Positions 31,097 through 34,699 of a stretch of DNA of 64,000 nt are shown in pieces. Below the pieces are notes generated by a model, which ran no database searches, was not told where the DNA came from, and was given only the letters and a program-made list of their open reading frames with translations. The DNA comes from Sphingomonas flavalba (GTDB lineage Bacteria > Pseudomonadota > Alphaproteobacteria > Sphingomonadales > Sphingomonadaceae), in the NCBI RefSeq assembly GCF_004796535.1, contig NZ_SPHY01000004.1:62001-126000 (forward strand), in the 5' to 3' direction. How positions within the stretch are numbered: the stretch's first letter is position 1; each line of letters starts with the position of its first letter. Made by a program: the position numbers and the translations under genes.

Positions 31097-31948
31097 ATGG
31101 CCCAGGGCAGCAGGAAACGCCTGGAAGTGTTCGTCGTCGTCAAAGGCCACCCGTTCGCGCGCGATCCGTTCGAGGCGATGTTACGCGCGATCGGGGTGGA
31201 ACCGACGATGGTCGATCAGCCCGCGGCAGCGATGCTGCTCAATCCCGATGCCATGCACCGCTTCGACGCCATTCTGTTTTACGACATGCCGGGGCTGGAT
31301 TTCCGCGTCCCCGCCGCCGAGCTCCCCGCCCTGATCGACCCCGATCCGGCGTTCAAGGCCGGCTTTCTCGCACTGCTCGCAGCGGGCAAGGGCATGGTTG
31401 CGCTCCATCATGCTATCGCCGGCTGGCCGGCATGGCCGATTTACGCGGAGGCGCTGGGCGGCCTGTTTCTCTACAAGCCTCAGTTGGTCCGCGGCCGACT
31501 GCGTCCGGAATCGGGCTATATCGGCAACGTCCGCTATACGGCCCGGCTCGCCGACAATCGGCACCCGATCCTGCAAGACATGCCGGGCCGGTTCGATCTC
31601 GTTGACGAGTTGTATTTGAACGAGTTGTTCGACGATCCCACGCTGATGCCGCTTCTATATCGTGAAACACCGATACCATCGGACTGCTTTCATTCCGCCA
31701 TGCGCGCGGTCCGCCATCTCGCGGAAGACGACGCCCCGCCATGGGTGCCGTCGGCACAAAGCCCGCTACTCGGCTGGGCCAAGGCCGCCGGCACCAGTCC
31801 GCTGGTCTATCTCCAGCCGGGCGACAATCCGCAGACCTATGCCAATCCGCATTATCGCAGGCTCGTCGGCAACGCCTTGCGCTGGGTTGCGTCGGACGGT
31901 GGAAGCCGCTGGGCCCGGCAACGCTCGATCGCCGCCGGACAATCTTAG
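31097..31948 (+). CDS. ThuA-like domain protein 1
   Basis: A 283-residue protein with a glutamine-amidotransferase-like ThuA fold. It has VFVVVKGHPFARDPFEAML, RFDAILFYDMPGLDF, the GKGMVALHHAIAGWPAWPIY segment and GWAKAAGTSPLVYLQPGD. ThuA-fold proteins occur in sugar utilisation and as parts of oxidoreductases, but their reaction is poorly defined. A second ThuA-like gene lies at 34774. The ATG at 31097 is chosen because the protein begins in the fold soon after; the operator is 91 bases upstream. The 3' end overlaps the convergent thiolase-like gene by four bases. Confidence 0.75.
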   Translation: MAQGSRKRLEVFVVVKGHPFARDPFEAMLRAIGVEPTMVDQPAAAMLLNPDAMHRFDAILFYDMPGLDFRVPAAELPALIDPDPAFKAGFLALLAAGKGMVALHHAIAGWPAWPIYAEALGGLFLYKPQLVRGRLRPESGYIGNVRYTARLADNRHPILQDMPGRFDLVDELYLNELFDDPTLMPLLYRETPIPSDCFHSAMRAVRHLAEDDAPPWVPSAQSPLLGWAKAAGTSPLVYLQPGDNPQTYANPHYRRLVGNALRWVASDGGSRWARQRSIAAGQS

Positions 31949-33096
31949 ACCGTCGCGGCGCTGCCCAGGATCACGGTGGCCTGGCTGGACAGGGTGCCTC
32001 CATTGCCATGCGCCAGCGCAACATCCACGGACGGAAGCTGGTTCGCCGCTTCGCCCCTGATCTGGCGCGCCGCCTCGACGATCGCGAACAGGCCATACAT
32101 GCCGGGGTGGCAGCACGACAGGCCGCCGCCATTGGTGTTGACCGGCAACGCGCCGCCCGGCGCAATACGCCCGTCAGACACGAACCGCCCGCCCTCCCCT
32201 TTTGGACAAAAACCCAGATCTTCCAGGAACAGAATAGTGTTGATCGTGAACGCATCATAAAGCTGCACGACCTGGATATCGGCCGGGCCGATCCCAGCGG
32301 CGGTATAGGCGCGCGCGCCCGATTCCGCCGCTGCCGTCGTCGTGATGTCGCCCGTCTGCGCGATCGAGTTCCACCAGGTCGCGGCGGCCGCGCCGAGCAC
32401 CGGCACCGATGGACGGGCAAGGTCGCGCGCGCGATCGGCTCGAGTCATGACGATCGCCGCCGCGCCGTCCGTCACCAGGCAGCAATCGTGCCGCGCGATG
32501 GGCGTGCTGATCATCCGCGACGCCAAACAGTCCTCGATCGTCAGCGGCCCCTTCGCGAACGCTTCCGGGTTCCCGTTCGCCCACTGGCGCGCCGCAACCG
32601 CGACCTCGGCCAACTGGGCGCGCGTCGTGCCATATTCGTGCATATGGCGCGCGGCGGCCAGCGCGTAGGAGGATAACGGGAACAGCGGCCGATACGGGGC
32701 ATCCCAGCGATTGCTCGTGATCGATGTCGCCAGCCTGCCGCCATTCGTGCGCTGGTTGGATCCGTAGGCGATCAGCGCCACGTCTATATAGCCGGCGGAC
32801 AGCGCCAGCGCCGCCGTGATCATATGGCTCATGAACGCGGAACCGCCGGTGCGGTTGTTGTCGGTAAAGCGCGGCGTCAGCCCGAGATATTCGGCGAAGG
32901 TCAGCCCCGCGAAGAAGTCGTCGGGGAGGCATATGAACAGCGCGTCGACATCGCCCAGCGTCAGCCCGGCATCAGCGACGGCAAGCAACCCCGCCTTTGC
33001 CGCCAGTTCCAGGGAACTGAACCCCGGCGCTTCGCCGATGCCATATGTGGCGAGCCCTGCAATAGCGCTACTGCCACGTGGAAAATGCCCACCCAT
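31945..33096 (-). CDS. Thiolase-like protein of the SCP2/Ltp type, without the usual nucleophilic Cys
   Basis: A 383-residue thiolase-fold protein. The N-terminal active-site motif reads RTGGSAFMSH, with Ser86 in the region where a true thiolase has its Cys. The later motifs are NTNGGGLSCCHPGMYG (the NxxGG...HP signature) and ALAHGNGG in place of CxGxGG. This pattern fits lipid-transfer-protein-like aldolases such as Ltp2 that act on CoA thioesters with a DUF35 partner. The adjacent DUF35 gene supports this. A retro-aldol cleavage of a beta-hydroxyacyl-CoA is therefore plausible, but not certain. Confidence 0.8.
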   Translation of the reverse strand: MGGHFPRGSSAIAGLATYGIGEAPGFSSLELAAKAGLLAVADAGLTLGDVDALFICLPDDFFAGLTFAEYLGLTPRFTDNNRTGGSAFMSHMITAALALSAGYIDVALIAYGSNQRTNGGRLATSITSNRWDAPYRPLFPLSSYALAAARHMHEYGTTRAQLAEVAVAARQWANGNPEAFAKGPLTIEDCLASRMISTPIARHDCCLVTDGAAAIVMTRADRARDLARPSVPVLGAAAATWWNSIAQTGDITTTAAAESGARAYTAAGIGPADIQVVQLYDAFTINTILFLEDLGFCPKGEGGRFVSDGRIAPGGALPVNTNGGGLSCCHPGMYGLFAIVEAARQIRGEAANQLPSVDVALAHGNGGTLSSQATVILGSAATV

Positions 33097-33098
33097 CG

Positions 33099-33488
33099 CT
33101 ATCGACCTACCGGGTCGAAAACGATCAGGGGCGCATCGCCTTCAGCGATGATGCGTGCGCGCACACGCATGCCGATCCGCACGGCATCGCTCGCCACGCC
33201 GTCGACCCGACTCATCATCCTGGCCCCTTCATCCAGATCGATCAGCGCGACATTATAAGGCGCCTCGGGATGCCGCTGCGCGACGATCGTCACCGAATAG
33301 ACGGTTCCCATGCCCGACGCCTCGAACCACTCCAGATCGGGGTCGCCGGTTCCCGGCTCGGCCACGCGCGGCGGAAAAACGACGGTGCCGCTGTTCACCG
33401 CGCGCTGGAGCAGGAAACGGCCTTCGGCGAGCGCCGCCCGCCAATGGGCCTCGGCCGCGTCGCTCGTCGCGCCGCCCGCGTCTTTCAC
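33099..33488 (-). CDS. DUF35 OB-fold protein that has lost its zinc-ribbon cysteines
   Basis: A 129-residue protein. The DUF35 pattern is clear in FLLQRAVNSGTVVFPPRVAE then DLEWFEASGMGTVYS. Family members usually carry a four-Cys zinc ribbon around FPPRxxCPxC; here every one of these positions is another residue and the protein has no Cys at all. The OB-fold half (VALIDLDEGARMMSRV) is intact. DUF35 proteins form complexes with thiolase-like partners, and the gene lies two bases from one. The start overlaps the CoA-transferase stop (ATGA). Confidence 0.8.
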   Translation of the reverse strand: MKDAGGATSDAAEAHWRAALAEGRFLLQRAVNSGTVVFPPRVAEPGTGDPDLEWFEASGMGTVYSVTIVAQRHPEAPYNVALIDLDEGARMMSRVDGVASDAVRIGMRVRARIIAEGDAPLIVFDPVGR

Positions 33489-34699
33489 GGCGTATCGGGC
33501 AGCCGGACGGCGCCGCTCGCCGCGAGCGCGGCAATCGCGGCGGCATCCAGCCCCGCCTCCGTCAGGATCGTCTCACTATCCGCTCCCAATGCCGGGCCGG
33601 GATCACCGATTTCTCCCGGTGTCTCCGAAAAGCGGGTCGGAATGCCGGGATAGCGCAGGGTGCCGGCTTCCGTCTCCCGCACCTGCCAAAAGCCGGTTTC
33701 CACCAGATGCGGGTCGTCGAGCAGGTCGGTCAGGCTGGCGATGGCCATTGCCGGAATCTCCGCGTCGCGAAACAGCGCCAGCCATTCGGCGGTGCTGCGT
33801 TGCTCAAGCACTTCCGCGACCTTGGCGAGCACCGCGCCGATATTTTCGGTGCGGCTGCGCATCGACTGGAACATCGGATCGGTCGACCATTCGGGATCGC
33901 CGATCGCATGAAAGAAGGCGCGCCAATGCTTGTCGTTATAGATCATCACGCCGATATGCCCGTCGCTGGTCTTGTACGGCCGGCGCGAGGCGGACGTCGC
34001 GCGCGGGTATTCGGGCGGGCCCAGCGGCGGCACGAACAGCGATCCGCACAGATGCTCGGTGGCGGCGAACGACACCAACGTCTCGAACATCGGCACTTCC
34101 ACCTCCTGCCCCACGCCGGTACGTTCGCGCGCGAACAGCGCGGCGATGATCGCGTAGACGCCGGTCAATCCCGCGACCTTGTCGGCGACCACCGTCGCCA
34201 GATAGGTCGGCTCCCCGCCGGACAGCCGGGCCTGCAAATCGACGATACCCGATGCGGCCTGCACGATGTCGTCGTAGGCGGGATAGTCGCGATAGGGACC
34301 CGACCGGGCAAAGCCGTAGAGATTGGCGTAAACGATCCGCGGGTTGGCCGCCTTCAGCGCGGCATAGTCCAGGCCAAGCCGGTCGATCGCCTGCGCACGC
34401 ATCGAATGGACGAACACGTCCGCCCCCTCGGCCAGCTTCAGCAGGGCATCGCGCCCGGCCGGCTGTTTCAGGTCGAGCACCAGGCTGCGCTTGCCGCGGT
34501 TGACGTTCAGGAACATGCCGCCACGCGCCGGATCGTTCCCGGGCGGCAGGAAGCGGGTGGTATCGCCGCCCGGCCCCTCGATCTTGATGACGTCGGCGCC
34601 CAGATCGGCGAAGACCTGGGTGGCGTATGGCCCCATCAGCACGCTGGTGAGATCAAGGATGCGAATGCCCGCCAGCGGCCCTTGTCCCCGCCCGCTCAT
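33485..34699 (-). CDS. Class III CoA-transferase (CaiB/BaiF family)
   Basis: A 404-residue enzyme that moves CoA between carboxylic acids. It starts LAGIRILDLTSVLMGPYATQ and continues ADLGADVIKIEGPGGDTTR, both family hallmarks. The catalytic Asp is in the YDDIVQAASG motif (143-144). VPMFETLVSFAATEH and the YKTSDGHIGVMIYNDKHW region are also typical. It is the first gene of a three-gene unit with DUF35 and the thiolase-like protein. No operator copy is visible in the 74-base gap to the divergent ThuA-like gene. Confidence 0.9.
   Translation of the reverse strand: MSGRGQGPLAGIRILDLTSVLMGPYATQVFADLGADVIKIEGPGGDTTRFLPPGNDPARGGMFLNVNRGKRSLVLDLKQPAGRDALLKLAEGADVFVHSMRAQAIDRLGLDYAALKAANPRIVYANLYGFARSGPYRDYPAYDDIVQAASGIVDLQARLSGGEPTYLATVVADKVAGLTGVYAIIAALFARERTGVGQEVEVPMFETLVSFAATEHLCGSLFVPPLGPPEYPRATSASRRPYKTSDGHIGVMIYNDKHWRAFFHAIGDPEWSTDPMFQSMRSRTENIGAVLAKVAEVLEQRSTAEWLALFRDAEIPAMAIASLTDLLDDPHLVETGFWQVRETEAGTLRYPGIPTRFSETPGEIGDPGPALGADSETILTEAGLDAAAIAALAASGAVRLPDTP

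Follow-up and report, generated by a model that had tools for sequence, protein, structure and literature searches.

What can a thiolase-like enzyme and its DUF35 partner do when the first has no cysteine at the nucleophile position and the second has no cysteine at all? The question is raised by two adjacent genes in a stretch of 64,000 nucleotides from Sphingomonas flavalba (contig NZ_SPHY01000004.1, positions 62,001 to 126,000 of the forward strand; hereafter the window), which an earlier note had interpreted as a possible variant retro-aldolase complex with a zinc-free scaffold. We found that DUF35 proteins without the zinc cysteines are a widespread class and not an oddity of this locus. 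From the gene pair, its residues, their conservation and the predicted folds we infer a complex, a chemistry, a substrate and an absence of zinc, which together would make a two-gene retro-aldolase (Tyr280 as base, His330 as likely acid) cleaving hindered beta-hydroxyacyl-CoAs on a metal-free DUF35 scaffold, a reading that we judge to be slightly on the probable side.

A thiolase-like/DUF35 gene pair without zinc cysteines

The coordinates of the two genes, already correct in the earlier note, are the following.

31945..33096, minus strand: thiolase-like protein of 383 residues (subfamily NF004811/PRK06158 of NCBIfam), probably the catalytic subunit of a retro-aldolase
33099..33488, minus strand: DUF35/OB-fold protein of 129 residues, GTG start, without cysteine, probable non-catalytic scaffold

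Only 2 bases separate the genes. The thiolase-like protein matched Thiolase_C_1 in Pfam (220 bits) and NF004811 (PRK06158) with 620.9 bits, above the curated cut-off of 421. The DUF35 protein matched the OB-domain model OB_ChsH2_C (PF01796) with 73.3 bits (cut-off 27.1), whereas the zinc-ribbon model zf-ChsH2 (PF12172) gave 17.1 bits, under its cut-off of 23.2. The nearest solved complexes by sequence were Ltp2-ChsH2(DUF35) of Thermomonospora curvata (6ok1; aldolase TcLtp2) and Sal-Shy(DUF35) of Comamonas testosteroni (9myr; aldolase CtSal), and the fold matches agreed.

As had been claimed before, the DUF35 translation holds not a single cysteine. In the alignment with 6ok1_B, the four zinc cysteines of the latter fall on Ala30, Ser33, Glu44 and Thr47, within two segments that we call pseudo-knuckles.

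33390..33401, minus strand: first pseudo-knuckle, A30-V-N-S33 (CxxC in zinc forms)
33348..33359, minus strand: second pseudo-knuckle, E44-P-G-T47 (CPxC in zinc forms)

DUF35 proteins without the zinc cysteines are a widespread class

How common such a partner is was counted in a family defined by the YDAF motif of the thiolase-like protein and at least 49% identity, with near-identical rows merged and the window's own protein included, which gave 111 distinct members. One source was a search of genomes, one per species, in which at least 587 stretches matched and the best 80 were taken, a sample that leans to close relatives; the others were loci found in searches of 1, 98, 296 and 398 genomes and eight plasmid loci. 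Results showed a DUF35 gene on the same strand within 700 bases of the thiolase gene in 100 of the 111 members; 68 of these DUF35 proteins had none of the four cysteines, 29 had all four and 3 had one. Among the other 11 members, four had a zinc-free DUF35 on the opposite strand, one had it elsewhere in the locus and six had none in the locus. A DUF35 was thus located in the fetched locus for 105 of 111 members (73 with none of the four cysteines, 29 with all four, 3 with one). Three of the six genomes without DUF35 at the thiolase locus were searched, and all three had a zinc-free DUF35 elsewhere. Separate fetched loci for the thiolase and a zinc-free DUF35 were seen in three Pseudomonas genomes (L074, L076, L078).

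The replacement of the cysteines is stereotyped, as CxxCG becomes mostly [SA]xx[ST]G and CPxCG becomes xPx[ST]G, and the zinc-free forms are spread across many bacterial families. A further sample was drawn by the OB domain only (the best 30 of 39 matches, from the 20 of 150 genomes with any; it overlaps the family set). It contained 16 loci with the plain four-cysteine motif and 14 without it. Read by eye, eight of these 14, including the window's own, were of the stereotyped zinc-free type; the remaining six were a Shy-like Cys3His1 form (L197), three forms with four cysteines at other spacing (L207, L223, L224) and two otherwise degenerate ones (L213, L214). The earlier note had regarded an abundance of partners without cysteine as a point against its proposal, and such an abundance is what we found (73/105), placing the pair in a large class.

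The evidence for a DUF35 complex of the Ltp2 and Sal kind consists of neighbouring genes and one natural fusion. The latter (L154:1498-3168, minus strand) is a single open frame that encodes a four-cysteine DUF35 together with a thiolase-like protein of the YDAF kind. The window's genome also has a second thiolase/DUF35 pair (C3:66209-67692; L002, L032), whose DUF35 has all four cysteines.

According to the parts of the papers available to us, all DUF35 proteins structurally characterised by 2019 are said to bind zinc at equivalent positions (PMC6996347), and the Cys3His1 zinc site of Shy is treated as an outlier in the 2025 CtSal paper (PMC12329534). We found no description of a ligand-free DUF35 in the literature searched, which was available in part and has most subscription journals outside its coverage.

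Active-site residues of the thiolase-like protein

The residues at the catalytic positions are listed here.

32842..32844, minus strand: Gly85, in the column of the nucleophilic cysteine of thiolases (alignment to 7yvy and 7pxp_C); Ser86 is next
32257..32259, minus strand: Tyr280 of YDAF, aligned with the base Tyr294 of TcLtp2 and Tyr302 of CtSal
32251..32253, minus strand: Ala282 of YDAF, corresponding to His296 in TcLtp2 and to the catalytic Cys304 in CtSal
32107..32109, minus strand: His330 of HPG, corresponding to the His of the thiolase GHP motif and sharing an alignment column with Tyr344 of TcLtp2; suggested as the general acid
32008..32010, minus strand: His363 of HGNGG, at the CxGxGG position

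The nucleophilic cysteine of a thiolase, present in 7yvy and 7pxp_C, is therefore absent. A serine had been noticed before in this region, and Ser86 indeed adjoins the site, but the residue in the cysteine column is Gly85, and serine was rejected as nucleophile. HGNGG, which had been likened to Ltp-type aldolases, is present too; considering that BbsB (7pxp_C) also has His at the CxGxGG position, the motif is no Ltp hallmark. Moreover, the histidine at 363 was present in 106 of the 111 members of the family and is thus not strictly conserved, which makes it less likely to be essential.

Gly85, Tyr280 and His330 were all invariant in a 55-row alignment (A4), whose rows were preselected for YDAF, so that only the conservation of His330 and Gly85 counts as a free observation. 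HPG was found in 111 of 111 family members. The motif at the catalytic site is YDAF, as against YDHF in TcLtp2 and YDCY in CtSal: the base tyrosine of Ltp2 is there (Tyr280), whereas its second catalytic tyrosine (Tyr344) gives way to His330 and the catalytic cysteine of Sal to Ala282. The roles of the TcLtp2 and CtSal residues are those described in the available part of PMC12329534, where Gly at the nucleophile position is held to rule out thiolysis in CtSal and where replacement of Cys304, the acid of CtSal, abolished activity. As neither the four cysteines of the zinc ribbon nor the second catalytic residue of Ltp2 or of Sal was found, we take the pair to be of a Tyr/His type, probably a retro-aldolytic variant with a metal-free DUF35 scaffold.

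Gene neighbourhood

Neighbourhoods were counted in 80 loci, the best 80 of the at least 587 stretches. Of these, 63 had a hydratase (enoyl-CoA hydratase or MaoC), 46 had an acyl-CoA dehydrogenase, 42 had the two together and 50 had a CoA-transferase. Within the fetched locus, 16 of the 42 loci with both enzymes had neither a short-chain dehydrogenase/reductase (SDR) nor a clear 3-hydroxyacyl-CoA dehydrogenase; this last family gave clear matches in 2 loci, which were counted, and weak ones in 2 more, which were not. These neighbourhoods agree with a cut made at the beta-hydroxy level, the stage at which Sal and Ltp2 act, and the agreement is best for the zinc-type pairs.

In the window, the gene next to that of the DUF35 protein overlaps it by 4 bases.

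33485..34699, minus strand: CaiB/BaiF family III CoA-transferase, start deduced from the 1215-bp gene of Sphingobium sp. RAC03

The pair lies in a catabolic cluster (29478-61692, about 29.5-62 kb) with four Rieske oxygenase alpha subunits, SDRs, an E1/E2 oxo-acid dehydrogenase, an acyl-CoA dehydrogenase, a thioesterase, a CoA ligase, a pyrroloquinoline quinone (PQQ) alcohol dehydrogenase, a TonB receptor and two ThuA-domain genes. By annotation, the gene order resembles that of plasmid pBSY17_1 of strain RAC03, whose syntenic region has an enoyl-CoA hydratase-related gene and a MaoC gene.

Proposed mechanism and the thiolase alternative

In the mechanism that we propose, a thiolase-fold dimer would act on a hindered beta-hydroxyacyl-CoA and break its C-alpha/C-beta bond in a retro-aldol reaction, while the DUF35 protein, bound at the flank of the dimer, would serve as a non-catalytic scaffold. 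Tyr280 would take the proton of the beta-hydroxyl, breakage of the bond would yield a ketone or aldehyde and an acyl-CoA enolate, and the enolate would be protonated by His330, in the place of TcLtp2 Tyr344. As there is no nucleophilic cysteine (Gly85), thiolysis is not expected. On the side of the scaffold, the zinc knuckles would be replaced by conserved Ser/Thr-Gly turns and the rubredoxin-like ribbon would stay without metal. A possible substrate in the window is an aryl or alicyclic acid that the CoA-transferase would activate and a Rieske oxygenase would hydroxylate, on the pattern of the ibuprofen pathway.

Several observations weigh against this proposal. The acid of CtSal, Cys304, corresponds to an alanine; His330 is present in ordinary thiolases too and is no aldolase marker alone; and the predicted model of the thiolase-like protein is weak at residues 321-330 (block predicted local distance difference test score, pLDDT, of 58), leaving the geometry of His330 unproved. 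IpfD, the ibuprofen-pathway counterpart treated below, has Tyr and not His in this column. AlphaFold models no zinc, so that the confidently predicted ribbon of the DUF35 protein (below) speaks for a fold and not for metal-free stability. Among the loci with hydratase and acyl-CoA dehydrogenase, those lacking SDR and 3-hydroxyacyl-CoA dehydrogenase were 10 of 15 zinc-type but 5 of 22 zinc-free loci, the rest being unassigned or partial. SDR genes were present in 42 of all 80 loci, including 27 of 46 zinc-free ones, and could serve a classical 3-keto route. Finally, a hydratase was not found among the 28 Pfam-scanned open reading frames of the window cluster outside the pair, a scan that did not take in every reading frame.

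The SDR genes, whose products could make a 3-keto substrate, would suit a thiolase or Claisen-type enzyme using another nucleophilic residue or direct attack of CoA on a 3-ketoacyl-CoA. The retained HPG histidine, the histidine shared with BbsB at the CxGxGG place and the NCBIfam name of the subfamily, acetyl-CoA acetyltransferase, are also in line with this alternative. We nonetheless regard it as improbable, considering that the nucleophile position is an invariant glycine, that 7yvy and BbsB have an HDAF motif whose histidine is replaced by tyrosine here, and that CtSal, with glycine at the same position, is an aldolase.

IpfD/IpfE of ibuprofen degradation

A special case of the retro-aldolase proposal is a C-C lyase of the IpfDE kind for a dearomatised aryl-acyl-CoA, in which a ring ipso-diol made by a Rieske oxygenase would be split into a catechol and an acyl-CoA. 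In the available parts of the ibuprofen papers, IpfD and IpfE of Rhizorhabdus wittichii plasmid pIBU218 are credited with taking off the acyl-CoA part, which leaves 4-isobutylcatechol (PMC6063337), and an ipfD insertion mutant did not grow on ibuprofen, polar effects not being excluded (PMC9195938). According to our own reading of the cis-diol described, this step would act on a beta-hydroxyacyl-CoA whose alcohol is tertiary, as for Ltp2.

IpfD has the YDAF motif and 36% identity to the window's thiolase-like protein. The coordinates of its partner are as follows.

L196:13228-13626 of pIBU218, minus strand: IpfE, DUF35 protein

IpfE has none of the four zinc cysteines; His, Thr, Trp and Ala stand there, with one Cys beside the third position, in a ribbon too diverged for a sure alignment. 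It has neither a zf-ChsH2 match in Pfam nor the PxTG turn, and BLASTP with the window's DUF35 protein aligned only the OB part (39% identity over 82 residues). The combination of YDAF and a ligand-free DUF35 is nevertheless common to both pairs, and the ibuprofen pathway, which has been tested genetically, probably offers a working example of a DUF35 without the ligands. Together with the CoA-transferase, the four Rieske oxygenase alpha subunits and the CoA ligase of the window cluster, this precedent lends the special case some appeal. The low identities and a Rieske match in only 10 of the 80 related loci (one query) make it, in our view, an unlikely description of the window pair. We found no remark on the missing zinc ligands of IpfE in the available parts of the ibuprofen-pathway papers. 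Plasmid pIBU218 also carries a second pair (L196:938-2502, minus strand), a lipid-transfer protein with YDHF and a four-cysteine DUF35, with motifs nearer to true Ltp2.

A ribbon without conserved ligands

The turns of the DUF35 ribbon are well conserved among the 68 zinc-free sequences. Pro45 and Gly48 were found in 68/68 and Gly34 in 66/68, while Gly48 occurred in only 17 of 29 zinc forms. Ser or Thr occupied position 47 in 65 sequences and position 33 in 58, where the others had Asp (6) or Gly (4); position 30 was Ser or Ala in 57, and position 44 was Glu in 29, Ala in 24 and Val in 7. There was no conserved His, Asp, Glu or Cys at the four metal positions in these 68 sequences; the filling of the zinc site by other His or Asp ligands, which the earlier note had named as telling against it, was not seen at these positions. 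The sole frequent acidic residue nearby is Asp51, directly after the ribbon (53/68 zinc-free sequences versus 4/29 zinc forms).

An AlphaFold2 model of the DUF35 protein, built with 65 sequences, had a mean pLDDT of 92.9, with 92-95 in the ribbon. It matched 6htj_B (Z 17.4, root-mean-square deviation 1.5, 118 residues), 6ok1_B (Z 15.1, deviation 2.5, 121 residues) and 9myr_B (Z 14.8, deviation 2.5, 120 residues), in structural alignments that span helix, ribbon and OB fold. The rubredoxin-like ribbon beside the OB fold is therefore predicted to be kept without ligands. Binding of metal through other ligands, namely the main chain, Glu44, Asp51 or the partner, seems very unlikely to us: ligands can move, as in the rearranged Cys3His1 site of Shy (PMC12329534, available part), and Glu44 and Asp51 are frequent, but none is conserved at 30, 33, 44 and 47, and Asp51 alone is not expected to form a zinc site.

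Nonsynonymous divergence (dN, 0.03-0.27) was below synonymous divergence (dS, 0.24-1.11) in 7 of 7 DUF35 pairs. As 73 of 105 family members share the loss of the four cysteines, these values mean that it is neither chance nor decay, and the pair is conserved and probably functional. That the DUF35 is a decaying, non-functional partner, as the loss of its defining metal site might suggest, is hardly credible in view of these dN and dS values, the invariant turn residues and the many bacterial families concerned.

Evolution of the probable zinc loss

The zinc-free label was strongly clustered in a quick tree built from 117 thiolases: it required 3 changes, 2 of them forced by starred branches, against a shuffled mean of 32. 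A four-cysteine group was the sister of the large zinc-free group, and the six outgroup rows comprised five four-cysteine forms and a partial one. The approximately unbiased test did not reject a single zinc-free clade (p 0.313, in a run without the one long row, L160, and with six unassigned rows included), so that the data agree with one loss and do not show more than one within the family.

Gly85, YDAF and HPG are common to zinc and zinc-free pairs. A single linked event for the loss of zinc and of the nucleophilic cysteine was consequently rejected, as the same thiolase goes with a four-cysteine (29) or a Cys-less (73) DUF35; judged from the sequences, the missing nucleophile is a trait of the whole family and the zinc loss is separate. 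The aldolase-like thiolase fold and the DUF35 without conserved ligands of the earlier proposal thus stand, and the coupling of the two losses falls.

Beside more distant thiolases, Cys-less or reduced DUF35 proteins showed SASS, STTG, DAST and CSST patterns. Judged by their distance, the Cys-less DUF35 proteins of L013, L041, L044/L046 and IpfE look like separate losses. A DUF35 with only the first zinc cysteine (CSST, CTST), possibly an intermediate of zinc loss, was seen at L195:4781-6384, L194:4746-6357, L120 and L128. Five thiolase columns (31, 97, 212, 213, 236) were candidates for tracking the zinc state, with too few independent contrasts. A genome-wide zinc economy is unlikely, as the window's genome retains a four-cysteine DUF35; both kinds in 2 of 3 Pseudomonas genomes searched (G701, G703) also count against it.

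Taken more broadly, these results could mean that DUF35 lost zinc repeatedly, leaving metal-free Ser/Thr-Gly pseudo-knuckles, and that a third dyad, Tyr/His, exists beside Tyr/Tyr in Ltp2 and Tyr/Cys in Sal, serving across Pseudomonadota to break down branched, alicyclic and aryl acids, with IpfDE as a cousin. We put this forward tentatively, as a possibility short of an even chance. The large ligand-less class suggests that zinc is dispensable for the DUF35 scaffold, and matched zinc and zinc-free pairs in one thiolase family make the role of the metal directly testable. If the Tyr/His reading is true, the name acetyl-CoA acetyltransferase is wrong for a large group of proteins, and the removal of the ibuprofen side chain gains a testable mechanism.

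Comparison with known systems

Ltp2-ChsH2(DUF35) of T. curvata shares with the window pair the thiolase fold, the DUF35 partner, the base tyrosine of YDxF and Gly for the nucleophilic Cys; it differs in its four-cysteine zinc DUF35, which is part of the ChsH2 hydratase chain, in YDHF and in Tyr344 as acid where the window has His330. Sal-Shy(DUF35) of C. testosteroni is alike in fold, partner type, base tyrosine and Gly at the nucleophile position, but has Cys304 of YDCY as acid where the window has Ala, a Cys3His1 zinc site and a DUF35 fused to a MaoC hydratase. The nearest solved chain, 4u4e, a putative thiolase of Sphaerobacter thermophilus, has HPG and the HGxGG His as in the window, but YDSF, and the entry consists of one chain only. 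In the BbsAB benzoylsuccinyl-CoA thiolase and the PhlABC acylase, a thiolase subunit is likewise combined with a DUF35 scaffold; there, however, the DUF35 bears zinc (Cys4 in PhlB), as does every homologue compared in PMC12329534, and BbsB has the nucleophilic cysteine. IpfD/IpfE share YDAF, a DUF35 without the four zinc cysteines and a sphingomonad cluster with Rieske oxygenase and CoA activation, and differ by their low identities (36%, and 39% over 82 residues), by Tyr for the HPG histidine in IpfD and by the lack of the PxTG turn in IpfE.

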